Below are positions 45,237 through 59,426 of a stretch of DNA of 64,000 nucleotides, one piece after another. Made by a program: the position numbers and the translations under genes. The stretch lies in the NCBI RefSeq assembly GCF_900176505.1, contig NZ_FWYB01000011.1, positions 62,001-126,000 of the forward strand. The letters are read 5' to 3'. The stretch is from Pedobacter nyackensis (GTDB lineage Bacteria > Bacteroidota > Bacteroidia > Sphingobacteriales > Sphingobacteriaceae). How positions within the stretch are numbered: position 1 is the stretch's first letter; the number at the start of each line of letters is the position of its first letter. The notes beneath the pieces are model-generated. The model did no database searches and was not told the origin of the DNA. It was given only the letters and a program-made list of their open reading frames with translations.

Positions 45237-46196
45237 TTATCCTCCTATATGAAGCATGCTCAGTTTGCTTCCAGTAAATTTTGTTGATTGTTTTTGTGCA
45301 AGTGCTTTCCTTAAAGAGGAATCAAGCGCTGCAGCTTCTAAATCCCTTAGTGGGATAGGGGAGTTGCTGCTTAAACAGCCATAGATATTTCCGTACGCAT
45401 CTAGTCGCAAACGATCGCAATCCGTACAAAAAGGATGACTTTCATTGGCAATGATGCCGAAAATATTCCCTTCTTCTGTTTGCCAGTAATTGGACGTAGC
45501 TCCCGGTTTTCTTCGGATAGGTGCAAATCGATACTGTTTACTGATCAACTCAAGTATTTCCTTTTGCGGAAAAAAGTACTCGTCGGCCTTTCCATGTAAA
45601 TGCCCCATTGCCATGATTTCTAAAAAGCGGATGATGATCTGTTTATCCGCTGCATATTTTAATAATGGAATTACCTGCATATGGTTGAGGCCCTTCATGA
45701 TGACGGAATTAATTTTTACCGCAATTCCGGCATTGAGCGCTGCATCTATGCCTTTTAACGTTTGTTCAAGCCCATGTCTCCTTGCCATCATAAAAAATGT
45801 CATTGGATCTGTTGCATCAAGCGAAACATTGATCGCTGTTAAACCCGCTGCTTTTAAAGCTGGTACTTTTTTATGAAGTAAGAGTCCGTTGGTGGTTAGG
45901 TTGAGGTCTGTAATCCCTAGCGCTCTGGTTCCTTTAATCAGTGCAGGTAGCTCTTTGTATAGTAATGGCTCACCGCCTGTAAACCTGACGGTACTAAAGT
46001 TTAGTCGTTCGTGTAATTTAATAACAAGGTTCATCAGTTCTGTTGGTGTCAGCCCGGCGCCCTTATTGGTTGAGTCATTTTTGTGGTTTTCCTCATTACT
46101 ATAGCTACAATAAGTACAGGCCAGATTGCAAGTGTTAATCAGGCTAATTCTCAGTGTTTTAAAAGTTCTTCCCAAATGGTCTTTAATTGCTTCCAT
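45237..46196 (-). CDS. moaA: GTP 3',8-cyclase
   Basis: 319 residues from the ATG at 46196, which overlaps the preceding stop as TGATG; a GTG one codon earlier is an alternative. Radical-SAM cysteines C23, C27 and C30 (CNLACTYC) and the second cluster in FCTDCDRLRLDAYGNIYGC are both present, and the protein ends in GG as active MoaA does. It performs the first Moco step, with MoaC (fused, at 54524) finishing cyclic pyranopterin. Confidence 0.95.
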   Translation of the reverse strand: MEAIKDHLGRTFKTLRISLINTCNLACTYCSYSNEENHKNDSTNKGAGLTPTELMNLVIKLHERLNFSTVRFTGGEPLLYKELPALIKGTRALGITDLNLTTNGLLLHKKVPALKAAGLTAINVSLDATDPMTFFMMARRHGLEQTLKGIDAALNAGIAVKINSVIMKGLNHMQVIPLLKYAADKQIIIRFLEIMAMGHLHGKADEYFFPQKEILELISKQYRFAPIRRKPGATSNYWQTEEGNIFGIIANESHPFCTDCDRLRLDAYGNIYGCLSSNSPIPLRDLEAAALDSSLRKALAQKQSTKFTGSKLSMLHIGG

Positions 46197-46927
46197 CACA
46201 TAAAAAATAAAAGTTTAACAGATGCTATAGCCAGTACGGCGCTCAACAGGTATCGTACTGTGATGTGTTGAAATCTGCTGCTGCCCCAATAGGCACCGGT
46301 AATACCTCCGGCGGCTGCCATAATAAACCAGGTAATTGCTGATGGGGTTATAACGAGCGTAGCTGAGCTGCCTAAAAGGCCGCTAATAGAGTTTAATACA
46401 ATAAATAAGGCCGATGCCGCAGCCGCTTCCTTTACGTTTGCCCAGCCTAGCAGAATGAGGATGGGACTTAAAAAGATGCCACCACCAATGTTTAGCATTC
46501 CCGAAAGTCCGCCGATTAGTGTGCCGATTAACAGCGCTGGGATCAGTTTTACCGGTTTTGAAGCTTTATTTTCATTGGGCTTGATGTCTAATAGTTTAAT
46601 GATGGGTAGTACCAGGGCTAATCCTAACAAAAAATGATAAATATTGCCCTCAAGGGAATATTTGGAGCCAATAAACGCTGCTGGAATGGAGGTGATAAGA
46701 AATGTCCTGCAAAGTTTCCATTTAAAATAACCCGCTTCCCAGAATTGATAAAAACCCATGCCTGCTACCAGGATGTTCAAAATCAATATAAGCGGCTTGT
46801 AAGTGGTAACCGGGATGGCAAATAAGGAAAGTACAGCAATGTATCCGCTGGCACCACCATGACCCACTGATGCATAGAGAAAACCTACCAGGTATAAAGC
46901 AAATGCGATACTGATGTCAAGTTCCAT
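46196..46927 (-). CDS. TauE/SafE-family permease
   Basis: 243 residues, about eight membrane helices in the two-half TauE layout: YLVGFLYASVGHGGASGYIAVLSL and the matching GTLIGGLSGMLNIGGGIFLSPILILLG. Members export or import sulfite, sulfonates or other small anions. Lying between the rubredoxin gene (3-nt gap) and moaA (1-nt overlap), it is likely to serve the pathway: an anion such as molybdate, sulfite or nitrite are candidates, none shown. No ModABC system is in the window. Confidence 0.85.
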   Translation of the reverse strand: MELDISIAFALYLVGFLYASVGHGGASGYIAVLSLFAIPVTTYKPLILILNILVAGMGFYQFWEAGYFKWKLCRTFLITSIPAAFIGSKYSLEGNIYHFLLGLALVLPIIKLLDIKPNENKASKPVKLIPALLIGTLIGGLSGMLNIGGGIFLSPILILLGWANVKEAAAASALFIVLNSISGLLGSSATLVITPSAITWFIMAAAGGITGAYWGSSRFQHITVRYLLSAVLAIASVKLLFFM

Positions 46928-46930
46928 AGC

Positions 46931-48418
46931 TTAAAATGTGTTTAGGGTTTCTTTAATAATTGGCGTAAATTGAGAGAGGTCTGCTTCACAAAGTGGGCAG
47001 CAATATTCTTCAGGAAGGGCAGAAAATGGAGTTCCAGCTGGTATTCCTTTACTTTCTTCTCCCCATACCTCATCATAAATGCTGAGGCAAACACTGCATT
47101 GTTGCACGTAAGTTACTTCCTGCTCAATATTTTGGTTGATTTCGTAATAGTTATCCGTTTGTTTCCCTGCGGCCAGAGTTTGCAGGTAATAGTAATCTTC
47201 GCAAAGCTGTATAAGAAAGGGAAGTAAATCCGTTTTTTTGATGCCCTTGGCATAAGTGTGGTAATGCTTTGAATTGGGATTGAAGTCAATCGTATGGAGC
47301 AAGTCAAATCGGGCATCAGTTTCTGTTCCCTCTGCTGTTTGCTTTCTGATCACTACAGATCCAAAGAGTCCACTCTTAGGGTTGATTTTAATGGCAAAGC
47401 AAAGCTTAAAGGTTCTGAGATCGTACTCATTAAATTGCCTGATCAATTCGTGTTTTAATGCCAGGCTTTCTTCACAGAGGTCCTCGGTTTGCCAGTTCAG
47501 TTCATTTGAAGCATGACGAACATTGATCCTGTTTTTATCCAGTGCAGCATTCCATAGTTTCCTGTCAGCAGATTCTACACCCTTGATGATGATGGATTTC
47601 CAGGGAGTAGTATAAAGCTGTCCAATTCTGGTTTTACGGCAAATGTTGCAGAGATCCTTTAAAAAGGCAACAGGAAAAAGCTCGTTTCTCCGGTAAATGC
47701 CCAGCCAGTACTTTTCGTTGTATTTATTAAAGCCTTCATAATAGGGCACCTGAAATTCCGGGGCCTTAAGTAAAGATATAGGAGACTGAAAAAGAAAATT
47801 ACCACTAGCCCTAACGTTTGCTTCGAGTTGATTTCCATCAATTTCTGGCTGGTCGTAGTATAAATTTTTCTGACTTAGAATCATGGATTCAATCATTTCG
47901 CTTAACACCGCGATGTCTTCCGAATAAACCAAAGACGACCAGTAATAAATGTGATTGGTTTTAGGGAAGCGCAGATATAAATGCCAGTAATTGCCAATGT
48001 CCGAGGAAATGAAATTTAGGTTTCCGCTAAAAAAGGGAATCAACGTCTGACTGTCATCAATCAGGTTGATTTTAAGTCCAGGCGTATAGCTAAATGTATC
48101 TAGTATGTCCTTGTATACGCCTTCACGTAGCCAGTTTGCACTATTAAATAGCTCTTCTGCTACATAGGAACTCACTATATTCGGATGTCGGTCTGCATCC
48201 GTTTCAAAGTCAGTATCCGACATGAGGAAACCATGCTCGATATCCTCCAGCTGCGTAGAACTTGCTGAGAAATAAAGCTGTTGGCGGGTTCCGAATCTTA
48301 CATTTTCTATACCAGCCTTTTCCAGTATTTCCACGATCACCGAAAGGTCGCCTACGGATACAATGCCTCCAGGGAGGTTAACTTTGATCTGATGGTTTTT
48401 AATTTCCCTGCCTTCCAT
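46931..48418 (-). CDS. Nitrite/sulfite-reductase-like protein with C-terminal rubredoxin domain
   Basis: 495 residues. The N-terminus (residues about 7-60, IKVNLPGGIVSVGDLSVIVEILEKAGIENVRFG) looks like the ferredoxin-like half domain of nitrite/sulfite reductases; a second such half appears near 250-300 (RKTRIGQLYTTPWKSIIIKGV). The siroheme/[4Fe-4S] pattern C-x5-C...C-x3-C, present in NirB, is missing: the region HPNIVSSYVAEELF where it should start has no cysteine. Residues 441-477 are a rubredoxin with iron ligands C441, C444, C474 and C477. It starts one base after the nitrate reductase gene. I propose an electron-transfer partner for nitrate or nitrite reduction; this is inference. Confidence 0.7.
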   Translation of the reverse strand: MEGREIKNHQIKVNLPGGIVSVGDLSVIVEILEKAGIENVRFGTRQQLYFSASSTQLEDIEHGFLMSDTDFETDADRHPNIVSSYVAEELFNSANWLREGVYKDILDTFSYTPGLKINLIDDSQTLIPFFSGNLNFISSDIGNYWHLYLRFPKTNHIYYWSSLVYSEDIAVLSEMIESMILSQKNLYYDQPEIDGNQLEANVRASGNFLFQSPISLLKAPEFQVPYYEGFNKYNEKYWLGIYRRNELFPVAFLKDLCNICRKTRIGQLYTTPWKSIIIKGVESADRKLWNAALDKNRINVRHASNELNWQTEDLCEESLALKHELIRQFNEYDLRTFKLCFAIKINPKSGLFGSVVIRKQTAEGTETDARFDLLHTIDFNPNSKHYHTYAKGIKKTDLLPFLIQLCEDYYYLQTLAAGKQTDNYYEINQNIEQEVTYVQQCSVCLSIYDEVWGEESKGIPAGTPFSALPEEYCCPLCEADLSQFTPIIKETLNTF

Positions 48419-48419
48419 A

Positions 48420-51400
48420 TTAAAGTGTTTTTTCTAGTTGTGTCTGCAATGCCTCCTGAAGAATGAGCTTAACTTCCGGTTTGCATGACCCACAGCCCAT
48501 TCCTGCTCCTGTACTTTCGCAAAGTTGTATAAGGTCTGTACATCCAGACGTAATTTTCTTTTGTAGGTTCCCTGCGCCAACGTTGTTGCAGCTGCACACC
48601 AGTTTGCCGATCACAGGTTCTGTTTTCTTCCCACTTCTGAGTAACTGTAGTCTTTTATCGCTCAGTTCTGTCTTATTGGCAATTAAATCCCTGAACTCCA
48701 GGAATTCACTCTTGTCACCTATTAAGATGGTGCCTACGAGCTTGTCCTGGTGGATGATACATTTTTTATAGTAGCGTTTGGCTTTGTCAATAAAGACAAT
48801 CTCTTCGTAGTTAACCTGATCCGGGCACTCTGAAAGGCCAATGCTGCAGAGGTCAAAACCATGAATTTTTATAATATTCATGAATAAGCTGCCCTGGTAA
48901 TATGTGCTGATGTCGCCATTGTGGAACTTGGCCACAACCTCTGCTTGTTGCTCTGCCGCTGCGGTTATTCCGTAAAGCGTGCCTTCAAATTCAGCGATTT
49001 CGCCAATAGCATATACAGAGGGATCGCTGGTTTGTAAACGCTCATTTACCAATACTCCACGCTTGCAATCCAGCCCGCATTCTCTGGCTAACTCAATATT
49101 TGGAGTAGTGCCTATGGCTAATATCACCGCATCACAGTTTATTCTTCTGCCGCTTTTTAACTCAATTCCGGTTAGCTTCGATCGGCCGTAGTAAAGCTGC
49201 ACTTCGTCATTGTAGTAAATGTCACAACCCTGGTCGACCATTTCTTCGTGTAAAAGTTGACTTCCCAGTGGGTCCAATTGTCGGTTCAGGAATCTGGATA
49301 CCCGCTGTACAACGGTAATACGTACGCCGATTTCTCGCAGGGAGGCTGCCATTTCCAGACCAAGCAAGCCACCTCCAACTATAACTACATGGGCATTTTT
49401 AGGAATGTGTTGTCTAAAATTATCCGCATCGTTTCGGTTACGCATGGTGAAAATCCCAGGTAACGAGGGTGCATTTTTTGGTAAGGTTGCCCTGCTGCCG
49501 GTAGCCATCACGAGTACATCGTAAGGCGTTTTTCGACCTGTTACATCTGTTACATATTTTTTCTCTCTATCAATTTTTTCAATGCCTACGCCTCTTAGGT
49601 GTTTGATGTTGTATGCCGGTTCTTCTTCGTCTTTCATCTTAACCAGTTGTTCCCATTTTTGGGTGCCACTGATATAGTCGGGAAGCATTACCCGATTGTA
49701 AAAAGGAAGATTCTCCTTGCTGAAAATGGTAATCTGATCCTCTTTATTAAGCTCCCTGTATGATCTTACAAATCCATGTGCTCCGGCACCTGCACCAATT
49801 ACTACGATGCGTTGGAAATCCTTTTTGTACTTTTCTATACTGACGGCACAGTATTTAAAATCGGGTTCTTTTGATATCGGATCTATAATGGTGCTGGTAA
49901 GGTTGTTGGCCCGGTTCAGATCGCTACCCAAAATTTTGCCCCAATGCATCGGAAGAAAAACCACCCCTTGTTTTATTGTGGCCGACACCCTTGCCTTTAC
50001 TTGTACTTCTCCACGTCTGGATCTCACAGTCAGCACCTGATTGTCTGAAATCTCCATTAATGCTGCGTCAATAGGGTGGATTTCCAGATAAGCATGTTTA
50101 ATGTGCTGTTTCAGTTTACTTACTTTGCCGGTCTTCGACATCGTGTGCCACTGATCGCGCACCCTTCCTGTGGTTAAAATAAAAGGGAAATCTTCATCCG
50201 GTAATTCGCTGTTTAGTTCATCAGAAGGATTGTGTATGATGGCCTTCTTAGATGCGGTATGGAAAATATGATTAGTAAATAGCCGTTTTGTCCCGCTTTG
50301 TGTTTTTTTGTTGTAAGGCCATTGTACGGTCTTGCAATCGTCAATCTGCTTGTAGTCCAAACCGCTGATGTCGATGCTCGACTTGCGGGTAAGCTTGGTA
50401 TGTTCTTTATAAATGTCCTCCATGCCTTTGTATGCAAAACCTTTATAGCCCATTTTTGTTGCAAATCGACAGATAATCTCTGCGTCCGGTAAAGCTTCAC
50501 CAGGAGCATCCGTTACTTTTTGAAGGTGACTGATTCTTCTTTCAGAATTTGTCATGGTGCCTTCCTTTTCGGTCCACGCGGCGGCCGGCAAAATCACATC
50601 AGCATAGGCGAGGGTTTCGGCTTTGTCTGTAATTTCCTGAACGACTACAAATTTTGCCTTTTTTAAAGCTTGCTCTGCAAAGCGGGCATTTGGCAAACTG
50701 GTTATGGGGTTTGTGCAAAGGATCCATATCGCTTTGAGTCGCCCGTCATTTAAGGCTTCGAACATTTCCGTTGCAGTAAGTCCAGCTTTACCTGAAATGG
50801 TCGTTCCACCCCAAAACTGCTGCACTTCTTTGCGGTGTGTTTCATTAAGTAAGTCGCGATGTGCAGGCAATAGGTTTGCCAAACCTCCAACTTCCCGCCC
50901 CCCCATAGCATTCGGTTGCCCGGTAAGTGAGAATGGGCCAGAGCCTGGTTTTCCTATTTGGCCAGTAATCAGGTTCAGGTTAATCAGGCTCAGGTTCTTA
51001 TTTACACCAATGGAACTCTGGTTTAAGCCCATGGTCCACATGGTTAAAAAGCTTTTTGCATTGCCTATATAGCTTGCTGCAAGTTCTATTTCTGCTGCAG
51101 TAACTCCACAGATTCCGGCAGACTCTTTTAATGTTCTTTCAAATACTCTGCTCCGATAAGCTTTAAAGCCTTCTGTACGGCGCTCAATAAAATCATGATC
51201 GATGTGACCTTTTTCTATAAGTATCCTTCCTATGGCGTGGTTGAGTGTAACGTCGGTCCCTGGATTGATTTGAAGGTGAAGGTCAGCCAGACTACATGAA
51301 TCCGTTACCCTTGGGTCGGCAATAATTAGTTTAACTTCAGGGTGAGCAGCTTTATAAGCCTCCACACGACGCCAAAGGATTGGGTGGCACCATGCCGGAT

Positions 51401-51932
51401 TGGCTCCTGTAACAAAAAAGCAATCCGCCAACTCGATATCATCATAACAAATGGGTACACTGTCTTCTCCTAAAGACATTTTATAGGCTGTAACGGCACT
51501 GCTCATACACAAGCGCGAATTGGTATCTATATTATTGCTGCCAATAAAGCCTTTAATCAGCTTGTTGATTACATAATACTCTTCAGTGAGGCATTGTCCC
51601 GATGCATAAAATGCCACTGAATCGGGACCGTATTTGTCGATGAATGTCTTAAACACAGCTGCTGTTCTGTTCAAAGCATCATCCCAGCTTACCCTTTGCA
51701 AAGGCATACTTTTGCTGTATCTCATTTGGGGATAGAGCAGTCGGTCGCTTTTGTCGTTAACCGTGTATTGTAGGTTAAGGCCTTTGCTGCAAAGCATGCC
51801 ATGGTTAACCGGGTGATCCTTATCGCCTTCAACAGCTATGTTTTTGTTCTTATCCAGTGTTATCTTTACGCCACAGCCCACCCCGCAATAGCAGCAGGTA
51901 CTTGTGTATGTTTTATTTCTGTGCGCTGGCAT
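48420..51932 (-). CDS. Assimilatory nitrate reductase: Mo-bisMGD + FAD + BFD [2Fe-2S] fusion
   Basis: 1170 residues from the ATG at 51932. The first 680 or so are a NasA/NapA-type catalytic subunit with [4Fe-4S] ligands C13, C16, C20, C48 and molybdopterin motifs (GVNKNLSLINLNLITGQIG, TGQPNAMGGREVGG). A NirB/NasB-like pyridine-nucleotide-disulfide domain follows (RIVVIGAGAGAHGF; second nucleotide fold HVVIVGGGLLGLEMA; AIGEIAEF). The end is a BFD-like [2Fe-2S] domain with C1113, C1115, C1147, C1150. In Bacillus the two functions are separate NasC and NasB chains. NAD(P)H could thus feed nitrate reduction within one polypeptide. No signal peptide: cytoplasmic. Second gene after the nitrate transporter. 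Confidence 0.9.
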   Translation of the reverse strand: MPAHRNKTYTSTCCYCGVGCGVKITLDKNKNIAVEGDKDHPVNHGMLCSKGLNLQYTVNDKSDRLLYPQMRYSKSMPLQRVSWDDALNRTAAVFKTFIDKYGPDSVAFYASGQCLTEEYYVINKLIKGFIGSNNIDTNSRLCMSSAVTAYKMSLGEDSVPICYDDIELADCFFVTGANPAWCHPILWRRVEAYKAAHPEVKLIIADPRVTDSCSLADLHLQINPGTDVTLNHAIGRILIEKGHIDHDFIERRTEGFKAYRSRVFERTLKESAGICGVTAAEIELAASYIGNAKSFLTMWTMGLNQSSIGVNKNLSLINLNLITGQIGKPGSGPFSLTGQPNAMGGREVGGLANLLPAHRDLLNETHRKEVQQFWGGTTISGKAGLTATEMFEALNDGRLKAIWILCTNPITSLPNARFAEQALKKAKFVVVQEITDKAETLAYADVILPAAAWTEKEGTMTNSERRISHLQKVTDAPGEALPDAEIICRFATKMGYKGFAYKGMEDIYKEHTKLTRKSSIDISGLDYKQIDDCKTVQWPYNKKTQSGTKRLFTNHIFHTASKKAIIHNPSDELNSELPDEDFPFILTTGRVRDQWHTMSKTGKVSKLKQHIKHAYLEIHPIDAALMEISDNQVLTVRSRRGEVQVKARVSATIKQGVVFLPMHWGKILGSDLNRANNLTSTIIDPISKEPDFKYCAVSIEKYKKDFQRIVVIGAGAGAHGFVRSYRELNKEDQITIFSKENLPFYNRVMLPDYISGTQKWEQLVKMKDEEEPAYNIKHLRGVGIEKIDREKKYVTDVTGRKTPYDVLVMATGSRATLPKNAPSLPGIFTMRNRNDADNFRQHIPKNAHVVIVGGGLLGLEMAASLREIGVRITVVQRVSRFLNRQLDPLGSQLLHEEMVDQGCDIYYNDEVQLYYGRSKLTGIELKSGRRINCDAVILAIGTTPNIELARECGLDCKRGVLVNERLQTSDPSVYAIGEIAEFEGTLYGITAAAEQQAEVVAKFHNGDISTYYQGSLFMNIIKIHGFDLCSIGLSECPDQVNYEEIVFIDKAKRYYKKCIIHQDKLVGTILIGDKSEFLEFRDLIANKTELSDKRLQLLRSGKKTEPVIGKLVCSCNNVGAGNLQKKITSGCTDLIQLCESTGAGMGCGSCKPEVKLILQEALQTQLEKTL

Positions 51933-51954
51933 AAATTGATTCTTAATGTTTGTA

Positions 51955-53265
51955 TTAAGCTTGTTGTAACTCTGGTATGATGGCTTCTGTCTTCTCTGCT
52001 TCTTTAACCTGGAATTTGGTGATAAACACAAGTAAACCTATAATCGCTACGCCAATCCCAATGTAATGGAAGGCATCGGCGTAGGTGAGGTGTTCTGATT
52101 TGAACAGGAAGCCCACCAGCATTGCGCCAATGTTACCGCCTGCGCCTACAATACCGCTTACCGTTCCAATAGAATTTTTATTGATGAATGGTACGATGCC
52201 GTAAGTCCCTCCATTGGCCATTTTCAGGAAGAGTGCAAAGAATAGCATAGCTATTATGGCCATAGTTAGTGAATGTGTGTGTGCGAAAAGGCTAATTCCT
52301 ACGCCTTCCAACACGAGTAAACCTCCTAGTAGTATTCCTTTTCCCCTAAGCCCGTATGATTTGCCTACTTTATCACTCACATATCCCCCAAGTGCTCTTG
52401 CAAAAATGTTCATCCCGCCAAATATGCTGGCCATGGCTCCGGCCATGATCATCGATGCGCCAAACTGATCTGTAAAAAAGGTGGCTGCTACATTGTCTAC
52501 GGTAATCTCAATGCCAAAACAGGCAGCATAGGCAAGCGCAAGGACCCAGGTACGGTAATCTTTTAGGGCGGTTACAAAAGAACCTTTTTTCGCTGTTTTA
52601 ACGTTCGACTGTTCCAGGTCTTTAAAGTTTCCTGCAGGGGTGTCTTTAGTGTATTTGTAATAAATGAAAGCCATGATCAGTAGGATTATTCCCGGAACAA
52701 CCATCGCTAAGCGCCAGGAGTCGGCCTGGTTCACAAATCCTAATCCGGCAAACCCAGCTGCAATAAGCGGCATAATTAAATTGGTAACTCCACCGCCCAG
52801 GTTGCCCCAACCTCCGGTTACTGCATTGGCTGTGCCCACCACATTGGGTGCAAACATCATTGAGGTGTGAAACTGAGTGATGACAAATGAGGCGCCAATA
52901 ATTCCGATAACAAAGCGGAATAATAAAAAGCTTTCATAGCTGTTGCTTAGCCCAATACACATTACAGGAATAGAGCCCACTGCAAGCAGTATGGTGTAGG
53001 ATAAACGGGGGCCTAAAGTATCGCAGAGTTTTCCAATAATTAAGCGGGCAATAATTGTAGCTGAAACGGAGGCAATGATGATGTTGCCAATTTCACTTTT
53101 ACTCAAATGCAACTGTTCCCGAATCAGTGGCATTAAGGGGGCAACTCCAAACCAACCAAAGAAGCAGAAAAAGAAGGTCACCCATGTGATATGAAAGGTT
53201 CGCATTTGAATGCCCTTGGCTGAAAAGATGTTTAGTTTACTTAGTGGTTTAAAGTCAGCAGTCAT
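51955..53265 (-). CDS. Nitrate/nitrite MFS transporter (NarK/NrtP family)
   Basis: 436 residues, twelve membrane helices. Nitrate-signature segments GIIGASFVITQFHTSMMFAPNVVGTANAVTGGWGNLGGGVTNLIMP and AGGNIGAMLVGFLF are the glycine-rich motifs of the NNP family; arginines that bind nitrate are seen in FRFVIG and MANGGTYGIVPFI lies in the second half. It should import nitrate (or exchange it for nitrite) for the reductase encoded 22 nt downstream. The 60-nt gap in front is the longest in the operon and shows no TAnnTTTG box. Confidence 0.93.
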   Translation of the reverse strand: MTADFKPLSKLNIFSAKGIQMRTFHITWVTFFFCFFGWFGVAPLMPLIREQLHLSKSEIGNIIIASVSATIIARLIIGKLCDTLGPRLSYTILLAVGSIPVMCIGLSNSYESFLLFRFVIGIIGASFVITQFHTSMMFAPNVVGTANAVTGGWGNLGGGVTNLIMPLIAAGFAGLGFVNQADSWRLAMVVPGIILLIMAFIYYKYTKDTPAGNFKDLEQSNVKTAKKGSFVTALKDYRTWVLALAYAACFGIEITVDNVAATFFTDQFGASMIMAGAMASIFGGMNIFARALGGYVSDKVGKSYGLRGKGILLGGLLVLEGVGISLFAHTHSLTMAIIAMLFFALFLKMANGGTYGIVPFINKNSIGTVSGIVGAGGNIGAMLVGFLFKSEHLTYADAFHYIGIGVAIIGLLVFITKFQVKEAEKTEAIIPELQQA

Positions 53266-56550: not shown

Positions 56551-56895
56551 TTAGTTCTTTAGGCCTATATATACTAGTCCATTCTCTATTTTTACCGGAT
56601 ATGTTTGTATCGCACATTCATCCCCACTGAGGCATTCGCCTGTTGCCAGTGAAAAGGTTTTTTTATGAAAGGGACAGGCTATCTTAGGATCTTCTCCTGA
56701 GGACCCGATCATTCCACGACTTAGGGCCATTTGCTGGCGGTGTGGACAAAGATTTTGCGTAGCATACCATTCATTTCGGCGGGTAAAGTAAAACAGTGCA
56801 ATTTGATCATCTCCACATTTCACACATACTCCACCATTCTCTACCGCATCCTCTACGCGGCAGGCTGCAAACCAGTTTGTTGTTGTTTCTATCAT
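56551..56895 (-). CDS. nirD: Nitrite reductase small subunit (Rieske-like)
   Basis: 114 residues, one Rieske domain with intact cluster ligands C50, H52 (CPH) and C74, H77 (CPFH). Many NirD proteins have lost these ligands, so a bound [2Fe-2S] cluster here is worth noting. It partners NirB in NADH-dependent reduction of nitrite to ammonium. The gene is 17 nt behind nirB and 32 nt before the MoeB-like gene. Confidence 0.92.
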   Translation of the reverse strand: MIETTTNWFAACRVEDAVENGGVCVKCGDDQIALFYFTRRNEWYATQNLCPHRQQMALSRGMIGSSGEDPKIACPFHKKTFSLATGECLSGDECAIQTYPVKIENGLVYIGLKN

Positions 56896-56912: not shown

Positions 56913-59426
56913 TTAAGCTAATGTCCAGTCAGCTGCTTTTTTCTGACCGCGCATCTCATCAAATTTTACACTAGGATCTTTTTCTTCTGGTGCATTTACA
57001 AAGTGATTAAATCGTTTTCTGATTTCCGGGTCTTCAATGGCTGTTTTCCATTCGCATTGGTAGCTGTCTACCAGCGCCTGCATTTCCAGCTCCCATTGTT
57101 CTGCCATGCCCAGGCTATCATTTACAACCACATTTCGTAAGTATTCCATGCCGCCTTCCATCTTGTTCAGCCATGGAGCGGTCCGCGTTAAAGGATCGGC
57201 GGTGCGGATGTAAAACATTAAAAAGCGGTCAATGTATTTAATGCAGGTGTCGCTATCCACATCAGCAGCAAGTAATAGGGCATGCTGCGGTTTGCTGCCT
57301 CCATTGCCGCATACATATAGGTTCCAACCTTTTTCTGTGGCTATAATTCCAAAATCTTTGCTTTGTGCTTCAGCGCATTCCCGGATGCAGCCACTAACGG
57401 CTGATTTTAATTTGTGAGGTGCGCGCAGTCCTCTGTAACGCTCTTCTATTCTGATGGCGTAGCTAACACTATCATGTAAGCCGAATCTGCACCAGGTGCT
57501 GCCAACGCAACTTTTTACGGTGCGTAAGGCTTTGCCATAAGCGTGCCCGCTTTCAAAACCAGCAGCTATTAGTTCTTCCCATATTAAGGGAAGGTCACTT
57601 AGGTGTGCGCCAAACATATCTATACGTTGTCCGCCGGTTATTTTGGTGTAAAGGCCGTATTTTTCTGCAACCTGACCTATAACAACTAGTTTCTCGGGAG
57701 TAATCTCTCCTCCCGGGATACGTGGAACCACAGAGTAGGTGCCTCCTTTTTGTATATTAGCTAAAAAGCGGTCGTTACTGTCCTGGGCGGTATCATTACC
57801 TTTTTTAAGAATCATGTCATTCCACAGACTCGCTAGAAGCGATGATACCAATGGTTTGCAAACTTCGCAACCATCTCCTTTGCCCAGATTATCCAGTACT
57901 TGCTCGTAACTTTTTAGGTTATGTATTTTTATCAGATCATAAAGTTCCTGTCTGCTTAAATGAAAGTGCTCGCAAACTACATTTCTAACGTATTTGCCAT
58001 TTTGTTTCATGGTATGCAACATGAGGTCTTTTACCATAGGTATGCATCCGCCACATCCTGTTCCTGCTTTTGTGCATTTCTTCAATGCGTCAACTGATTC
58101 GCAACCATCTTCATTCACTGCATTACAGATTGTGCCTTTTGATATGCCTTCACAGCTGCAGATTAGCGCGTCGTCCGGAAGTCCTGCCAGTCCTGCGTTT
58201 TCTGTTTGGGAGCTGCCGCCTCTTGAACCTAGAATAAGGTCTTCAGGGTTGGGTGAGAGTAATATTTTGTTATTTACAGTTTGGAGCAACATGTTGTAAG
58301 CTTCAGCTTCTCCGATCAATATCCCGCCAAGTAGTTGTTTTCCATCATTGCTGATGTTGATGCGCTTATATATGCCTTTATGACTGTCTTCAAAAATAAT
58401 AGATCTTGCATCCGGTTCTGTTGTGAAAGGGTCTCCAAAACTTGCCACATCCACACCAATCAATTTTAGCTTAGTGCTCATGTCAAAACCTTTGAAGGTT
58501 TTGTTATCGTCACACAGTTTAGCTGCTGCTACCTCGGCCATTTCGTAACCCGGGGCAATTAATCCATAAATGTTATGATCAAAGAGAGCGCACTCGCCTA
58601 TGGCAAAAACTGCGGGATCACTGGTTTGCATATATTCATTTACAATAATCCCGCCTCTTGTTCCTACTTCAATACCCGAAAGTTTAGCTAATTCATCTCT
58701 TGGTCTTATTCCGGCAGAGATAACCAGCATATCTGTTTTTAATTCACTGCCATCATTAAATTTTAATGAGCTTATGCGGTCTGTGCCTTCAATACTGCTT
58801 GTCCCTTTATTGGTGTAGATGTTCAGGCCTAATGCTTTAAGTTTGCTTTGCAGCATTCCGCTTCCGGCGCTGTCAATTTGCCTGGGCATTAAACGAGGCG
58901 CAAATTCTATTACGTTTGTTTCTTCAAGGTTTAAGTCTATCAAGGCTTTTGCTGCCTCGAGGCCTAGTAATCCCCCTCCTAATACAGCACCTGTTTTAGC
59001 ATAAGCTGTATAATTTTTGATCAAATTAAGGTCTTCGATTGTTCGATATACAAAAACGCCTTCTTTATCTATGCCAGGGATATCAGGTACAAAAGGAGCA
59101 GAGCCTGTAGCAATAATTAAATAATCGTAGGTTACTGTAAGACCTTTTGAAGAGTGTATTGTTTTATTGTCCCTGTCTATTTCTTTTACAGGGTCATTTA
59201 GATAAAGTGTTATTCCTTGTTCCGCATACCAGGTTTCTGTAGACAAAGATAAGTCGTCTGCAGATTTTCCGTTGAAGTATTCGCTTAGATGGACTCTATC
59301 ATATGCCCTTCTTGGCTCTTCTCCGAAAATTATGAGGTCGAAATCGTTTGATTTGCTTATTATTTTTTCACAAAACTTATATCCGACCATTCCATTTCCA
59401 ATTATGACTATTTTTTTGTGTTTCAT
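56913..59426 (-). CDS. nirB: Nitrite reductase [NAD(P)H] large subunit
   Basis: 837 residues, the normal NirB length. Order: FAD/NAD domain (IVIIGNGMVGYKF, TGSAPFVPDIPG, AVLGGGLLGLEAAKAL, AIGECALF), two BFD-like [2Fe-2S] regions (CSCEGIS...GTGCGGC and CEHFHLS...GDGCEVC), the NIR/SIR ferredoxin-like half and the siroheme/[4Fe-4S] site C640, C646, C680, C684 (CVGSTWC and GCIRECAE). It reduces nitrite to ammonium in the cytoplasm using NAD(P)H. First gene of the operon; a canonical promoter is found about 160 nt upstream. Confidence 0.96.
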   Translation of the reverse strand: MKHKKIVIIGNGMVGYKFCEKIISKSNDFDLIIFGEEPRRAYDRVHLSEYFNGKSADDLSLSTETWYAEQGITLYLNDPVKEIDRDNKTIHSSKGLTVTYDYLIIATGSAPFVPDIPGIDKEGVFVYRTIEDLNLIKNYTAYAKTGAVLGGGLLGLEAAKALIDLNLEETNVIEFAPRLMPRQIDSAGSGMLQSKLKALGLNIYTNKGTSSIEGTDRISSLKFNDGSELKTDMLVISAGIRPRDELAKLSGIEVGTRGGIIVNEYMQTSDPAVFAIGECALFDHNIYGLIAPGYEMAEVAAAKLCDDNKTFKGFDMSTKLKLIGVDVASFGDPFTTEPDARSIIFEDSHKGIYKRINISNDGKQLLGGILIGEAEAYNMLLQTVNNKILLSPNPEDLILGSRGGSSQTENAGLAGLPDDALICSCEGISKGTICNAVNEDGCESVDALKKCTKAGTGCGGCIPMVKDLMLHTMKQNGKYVRNVVCEHFHLSRQELYDLIKIHNLKSYEQVLDNLGKGDGCEVCKPLVSSLLASLWNDMILKKGNDTAQDSNDRFLANIQKGGTYSVVPRIPGGEITPEKLVVIGQVAEKYGLYTKITGGQRIDMFGAHLSDLPLIWEELIAAGFESGHAYGKALRTVKSCVGSTWCRFGLHDSVSYAIRIEERYRGLRAPHKLKSAVSGCIRECAEAQSKDFGIIATEKGWNLYVCGNGGSKPQHALLLAADVDSDTCIKYIDRFLMFYIRTADPLTRTAPWLNKMEGGMEYLRNVVVNDSLGMAEQWELEMQALVDSYQCEWKTAIEDPEIRKRFNHFVNAPEEKDPSVKFDEMRGQKKAADWTLA

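Follow-up and report, generated by a model that had tools for sequence, protein, structure and literature searches.

A rubredoxin-fused, siroheme reductase-like protein without cluster cysteines, encoded with a fused nitrate reductase and NirB in Bacteroidota

The closest described systems are the monomeric siroheme reductases NirA and CysI/SiRHP, which share with the body of the 495-aa protein described here a two-half architecture, 401 aligned profile columns and a counterpart of E. coli CysI R117; unlike them, the 495-aa protein lacks the [4Fe-4S]/siroheme cysteines and the R153 counterpart (61/61 sequences) and carries an appended rubredoxin. The SIR domain of NirB belongs to the same superfamily as the body and in NirB comes after a FAD-[2Fe-2S] module; NirB possesses a single half, matched by PF01077, whereas the 495-aa protein has two halves, as in NirA and CysI, and is encoded by a separate gene. 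With rubredoxin (PF00301) the 495-aa protein shares all four cysteines, here in a C-terminal domain. Among electron-transfer partners of nitrate reductases, NasG of P. denitrificans is a Rieske-type partner electron carrier of the assimilatory nitrate reductase. B. japonicum requires the flavoprotein Flp to grow on nitrate but can grow on nitrite without it, and Flp is proposed to pass electrons to NasC (PMC4724949), which illustrates that an accessory electron protein encoded in an operon of this kind can be important. Flp and NasG are, like the 495-aa protein, encoded with the nitrate reductase; unlike in those two systems, the nitrate reductase here already has a fused NADH module.

A gene named ‘rub, rubredoxin’ is given in a figure legend of nitrate gene clusters, including clusters of Bacteroidetes, among genes of unclear involvement (PMC8199190), and by its name and surroundings, as far as that legend goes, it is probably the gene of the 495-aa protein. 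The excerpted text of PMC8199190 makes no mention of a NIR/SIR body. Novelty, which an initial annotation of this locus had suggested, calls for a qualification: no description of the NIR/SIR body was recognised in open-licence PMC, and the gene itself was probably already in print as ‘rub’ in that legend. No paper describing the 495-aa protein or its body was recognised in open-licence PMC, a collection in which subscription journals are mostly uncovered.

The window (the whole stretch of DNA analysed, 64,000 nucleotides) contains an assimilatory nitrate operon with genes for NirB, a NirD-like protein, molybdenum cofactor (Moco) biosynthesis, NarK, nitrate reductase, the 495-aa protein, a TauE-type permease and further Moco proteins, the Moco genes being named by eye:

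56913..59426, minus strand: NirB, NADH nitrite reductase large subunit (PF01077 match).
56551..56895, minus strand: NirD-like small subunit (by eye, and by analogy with the annotated nirD of related clusters).
51955..53265, minus strand: NarK-family nitrate/nitrite transporter (TIGR00886, 315.2 bits, cut-off 311.7).
48420..52031, minus strand: fusion of an assimilatory nitrate reductase with a NirB-type FAD + [2Fe-2S] module, the constant upstream neighbour.
46931..48418, minus strand: protein with a NIR/SIR-like body and a rubredoxin, 495 aa, ATG start.
46196..46927, minus strand: TauE/SafE-type permease, directly downstream of the gene for the 495-aa protein (Pfam).

As first annotated, a single base (48419) lies between the nitrate reductase stop and the ATG of the 495-aa protein. 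The nitrate reductase ORF encodes 1203 aa, as listed from a TTG, with a molybdopterin domain bearing an N-terminal [4Fe-4S] cluster followed by Pyr_redox_2, Rubredoxin_C and BFD [2Fe-2S] domains (Pfam); its reductase module resembles the N-terminal part of NirB (TIGR02374 positions 1-474, E 4.8e-95). A siroheme-type methyltransferase was recognised by eye in the window, and cobA is annotated in two plasmid clusters. The permease is perhaps an anion exporter for nitrite; a TauE match occurs in 14 of 51 loci, in some of them far off. No NCBIfam family reaches its cut-off for the 495-aa protein, whose body spans residues 6-423 with the rubredoxin at the C-terminal end:

48266..48388, minus strand: first ferredoxin-like half domain, residues 11-51 (Pfam), containing R45-Q46.
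47639..47650, minus strand: C257-x2-C260 in the second half domain, both Cys in 59/61 members and in 3/3 rubredoxin-less paralogues.
47534..47668, minus strand: second ferredoxin-like half domain, residues 251-295 (Pfam).
47480..47524, minus strand: N-V-R-H-A-S-N-E-L-N-W-Q-T-E-D, residues 299-313, the family signature where siroheme reductases have C-x5-C.
46967..47101, minus strand: rubredoxin domain, residues 440-484 (Pfam Rubredoxin, E 3.3e-15), with C441, C444, C474 and C477.

The relation of the body to siroheme reductases was assessed by family models, profile-profile alignment and fold comparison. Pfam NIR_SIR_ferr matches the 495-aa protein in two stretches (E 2e-11; 43.9 bits; curated cut-off: 24), which in a domain-wise genome search score 28.1 bits (residues 11-51) and 22.2 bits (residues 251-295, just below the cut-off), and it matches 11/11 members of alignment A2 (E ≤ 1). 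PF01077, the cluster-binding NIR_SIR module, has no Pfam match in the 495-aa protein, though the NirB of the operon matches it. An hhalign comparison was made between a body profile of 58 sequences (55 members and 3 paralogues, 51 kept by the program) and a profile pooled from 23 siroheme reductases with E. coli CysI first; it placed residues 6-423 of the body on CysI 77-552 over 401 columns (Prob 97.4, E 9.5e-12, score 97.5), against scores of 14.7-21.1 for reversed and five column-shuffled control profiles and 19.4 for an unrelated nitrate reductase profile. Strong similarity appeared only with the pooled profile, matches to shallow single reductase groups being weak to moderate (Prob 15-85) and a forced global run giving Prob 0.1-5. 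The CysI type had the best single-group score (group depths differ), and the NirB SIR domain matched more weakly (score 36.8). An hmmsearch of PDB sequences with body profile A3 gave no match even at E 10; a plain HMM-sequence comparison is thus not sensitive enough there to detect the relation, a sign of how far the body has drifted.

An AlphaFold2 model computed from 11 sequences was of moderate quality (pLDDT 69.7, pTM 0.50; residues 301-311 and 334-352 among the parts below 50). Foldseek against the PDB returned sulfite or nitrite reductases at all of ranks 1-31 (E 2.6e-13 to 1.4e-10; matches of the body include 1zj8, 3b0h and 6c3m), followed by rubredoxins, and VIA-align gave Z 14.9-17.4 in 25 reductase rows with 281-380 residues aligned at 5.7-9.2 Å rmsd, a deviation from which we conclude that parts of the model are probably shifted. 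Two half domains and two NIR_SIR modules are collinear over the monomer by profile-profile alignment and fold, and plain HMMs detect the half domains only. As judged from these alignments and the predicted structure, the body is a complete two-half NIR/SIR monomer in which both pseudo-symmetric halves are present. The initial annotation had by eye seen two stretches resembling ferredoxin-like NIR/SIR halves and had suggested a structural comparison with NIR/SIR folds; Pfam, hhalign and the fold searches uphold the former, extending it to the whole two-half monomer, and Foldseek and VIA-align supplied the structural match.

Residues were counted across 61 full-length Bacteroidota members including the window protein, some of which share a genus and hence are not independent; one broken copy (L083; two ORFs, internal stop) was left out. 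Neither C-x5-C nor C-x3-C occurs within residues 290-365 in any of the 61, so the lack of the siroheme-[4Fe-4S] cysteine motif reported for the window protein holds throughout, and by sequence the [4Fe-4S]/siroheme cysteines are shown to be missing from the whole family examined. Positions were mapped to E. coli CysI from the hhalign alignment, with the E. coli letters checked. Among R83, R153, K215 and K217, which we take to be the four basic active-site residues of siroheme reductases, the counterpart of R83 (K12) is K/R in 52/61, that of K215 (G114; Gly in the window protein) is K/R in 39/61 and that of K217 (K116) is K/R in 60/61, and the counterpart of R153 (P79) is P/N/Q/E/A and Arg in 0/61; the family does not keep all four. 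The counterpart of CysI R117 (R45) is Arg in every member, and the pair R45-Q46 is kept in 61/61. Within the signature at residues 299-313, whose register against CysI C434/C440 is uncertain, R301 and H302 are present in 60/61 and W309 in 57/61; with pLDDT below 50 at 301-311, the geometry of the pocket cannot be claimed. C315 aligns with CysI C440 at a confidence of 0.37 and is Cys in just 26/61, and on both grounds it was not taken as a remnant ligand. Apart from C257-x2-C260, the body has no other family-wide conserved cysteine. Across the 61 sequences 18 positions are invariant. Against four Pedobacter relatives the gene has a dN/dS of 0.06-0.08 (dS 1.3-2.0, hence approximate), compared with 0.02-0.03 for nitrate reductase, 0.03-0.06 for TauE and 0.11-0.15 for MobA (one pair fewer), all of these values being rough because dS is about 1 or more in all compared genes.

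The rubredoxin domain is complete, as Pfam and the cysteine positions confirm, with C-x2-C ... C-x2-C in a rubredoxin fold by Pfam, Foldseek and VIA-align. Its four cysteines are present in 60/61 members, the one member without the domain (L062, genome G222) beginning at a contig end, and they stay in the 4/61 members with a shorter loop separating the two Cys pairs (L011, L012, L058 and L072). The bound metal could be zinc rather than iron. Rubredoxin-less paralogues of the body (415-421 aa, about 35% identity to the body) were found in 3/101 same-family genomes, from whose existence it follows that the body may act without a rubredoxin:

L054:1236-2483: rubredoxin-less paralogue.
L055:1959-3224: rubredoxin-less paralogue.
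L056:17820-19067: rubredoxin-less paralogue.

Judged by eye, each of the three has as its neighbour a beta-barrel protein similar to alginate export porins, and in L054 and L056 a FocA/NirC-like channel and a sensor kinase paired with a response regulator are also encoded close by.

The distribution of the family was determined by profile search, which found a full-length member in 29/395 Bacteroidota genomes. The other 94 of 123 genomes with profile matches were dropped (best E 1.1e-12 to 3.3e-8); the matches listed among them start no earlier than profile position 372 and cover little other than the rubredoxin. With the two best candidates per genome scored, the fused nitrate reductase was found in 33/395 genomes (matches >1000 residues) and NirB in 28/395 (E ≤ 1e-120). 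The NirB genomes are exactly the 29 member-bearing genomes minus G222, in which no nitrate reductase domain and no NirB SIR part was found even at E 1e-10. By coordinates, 28/29 member-bearing genomes have the member gene no more than 1 kb downstream of a co-directional fused nitrate reductase gene. The 28 genomes with all three genes are spread over 8 families, and because at least five of these (f1, f2, f4, f5 and f8) include genomes lacking all three, the distribution suggests that the 495-aa protein, the fused nitrate reductase and NirB come and go together. A same-family sample gave matches in 34/101 genomes, the window's own included. In 48 of 51 loci analysed in detail, a fused reductase gene precedes the member gene in the same orientation at a distance of at most 1 kb (median gap 2 bp, 44 of the 48 pairs at ≤200 bp, overlaps counted); in the other three the reductase is adjacent and cut by the locus end (L055), the gene is split (L083) or the gene lies at a contig end (L062). 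The linkage and co-occurrence with nitrate reductase looked for in a subunit were thus found in 28/29 genomes and 48/51 loci, which bears out the expectation, set down before this survey, that homologues sit beside nitrate genes. Contamination or chance is ruled out by the conserved synteny in 29/395 genomes, and independence from nitrate genes is ruled out in this sample, with G222 the sole exception. A wider search yielded 11 loci, all from Bacteroidota and all close relatives.

Five genomes from three families (G313, G149, G107, G250 and G274) have a fused nitrate reductase of 48-53% identity and are without the 495-aa protein, no relative being detected in any of them with searches that included the body profile; the fused nitrate reductase as such therefore does not need it. 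A search of these genomes at E ≤ 1e-10 did not find NirB: the matches of its FAD module were the fused nitrate reductase plus further flavoproteins, and its SIR part gave a single weak match (G313, 1.5e-11). In their clusters (L099-L103) is a gene for a NirA-like reductase, both of whose cysteine motifs are present. The 495-aa protein tracks the joint presence of fused nitrate reductase and NirB. As a side observation made by eye, the NirA-like gene has flavodoxin- and CysJ-like neighbours in L102 (full) and in L099 and L100 (first residues), and in these three loci the NirA-like and flavodoxin-/CysJ-like proteins have similar N-terminal motifs, approximately ‘PFxxEQRxWLNGF’, which may be docking peptides.

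The nitrate reductases keep their own cofactor ligands. The [2Fe-2S] ligands C1146, C1148, C1180 and C1183 are present in 50/50 nitrate reductases that accompany the 495-aa protein and in 5/5 that do not; for the N-terminal cluster, C46, C49 and C53 are present in 49/50 and C81 in 50/50 with the protein, and each ligand in 4/5 without it. Electrons can therefore reach the molybdenum unaided, and with the ligand set complete the role of the 495-aa protein would be auxiliary, an obligatory relay not being implied. With a probability of roughly one half, we infer from domain order, conservation and co-occurrence that the protein is a dead NIR/SIR scaffold that serves cytoplasmic assimilatory nitrate/nitrite reduction as an accessory subunit for docking and electron transfer. 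It would have arisen as a NIR/SIR monomer that lost its catalytic metal site. The SIR-like body may dock on the NirB-type FAD-[2Fe-2S] module fused to the nitrate reductase, by analogy with the domain order of NirB, in which the SIR domain comes after such a module; the rubredoxin would exchange electrons with the FAD-[2Fe-2S] module. Through such contacts the protein might distribute NADH-derived electrons over nitrate reductase and NirBD or act as a buffer for them, or take electrons from another donor, so that its auxiliary contribution would be to rate, coupling or the use of an alternative donor. Against this proposal stand the complete ligand sets of the nitrate reductase, the five genomes that have the fused nitrate reductase and lack the protein, the rubredoxin-less paralogues, and the two halves of the body, where NirB has one, with its weaker match to the NirB SIR domain. 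The initial annotation is supported in its view that the body derives from a NIR/SIR-type reductase, is devoid of the cluster ligands, carries a complete rubredoxin and is tied to nitrate operons; the electron-carrier or docking role that it also proposed is a candidate function.

A first alternative, which we regard as unlikely, is that the body joins nitrate reductase to NirBD as a scaffold and its old basic anion pocket holds nitrite in transit, the rubredoxin being structural or redox-sensing. Co-occurrence is complete with NirB (28/28) and less so with the fused nitrate reductase (28/33), and the pocket is mostly basic (counterparts of R83 in 52/61, K217 in 60/61 and R117 in 61/61), as nitrite hand-over would have it; against this, the R153 counterpart is lost in 61/61, the K215 counterpart is K/R in 39/61 and Gly in the window protein, and a purely structural role leaves the retained rubredoxin cysteines unexplained in the four members whose loop shrinks.

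Continued enzymatic activity is a distinctly weaker candidate: the pocket would bind siroheme or another tetrapyrrole through a new ligand such as H302, with the rubredoxin in place of the [4Fe-4S] cluster as electron feeder in the reduction of nitrite, NO or sulfite. The conservation of R45-Q46 (61/61) and H302 (60/61) and the basic character kept at most pocket positions are consistent with this, but the cluster cysteines and R153 are all lost, NirB is available for nitrite in 28/29 genomes, and the region 301-311 is poorly predicted (pLDDT <50). A bolder version, itself a long shot, is that the family forms a new class of redox protein, built on a NIR/SIR scaffold and driven by a rubredoxin, in which the mostly basic pocket (K12, R45, K116), perhaps together with H302 and C257-x2-C260, would still bind nitrite or a tetrapyrrole. 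Standing in for [4Fe-4S], the rubredoxin would couple nitrate reductase to NirB.

We are very doubtful that the protein is a maturation factor that helps to supply NirB with siroheme or iron, or nitrate reductase with the molybdenum cofactor. Moco genes and a siroheme-type methyltransferase as neighbours, together with the co-occurrence with NirB, speak for such a role; genomes without the 495-aa protein, for example G016 and G156, still have PF01077 proteins, and the five genomes described above have the fused nitrate reductase without it. That the protein is the decaying remnant of a replaced NirA, retained merely through its operon position, is scarcely credible given a dN/dS of 0.06-0.08, 18 invariant positions in 61 sequences and a rubredoxin intact in 60/61, even though the NirA-like gene with cysteine motifs in the five clusters without the protein, where NirB was not found, fits replacement.

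As an accessory subunit, the 495-aa protein would be a conserved third partner of Bacteroidota nitrate assimilation, present in 28/28 sampled genomes with both fused nitrate reductase and NirB and concealed under the annotation ‘rubredoxin’ where it is annotated. It would also clearly exemplify a siroheme reductase fold retained after loss of its metal centre, and it gives a direct genetic test of the scaffold's purpose.

Relatives also occur in four plasmid records, two annotated ‘rubredoxin’ (Hymenobacter and Spirosoma), one without a feature under the match and one without annotation. Two of the four carry Bacteroidota taxonomy; Persicobacter, the source of one record, is presumably also a member of the Bacteroidota. 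In L074 and L075, from the window's genus, the protein has 41% identity to the window protein, yet the nitrate reductase has 64-69%; either the 495-aa protein evolves faster or clusters have been exchanged.
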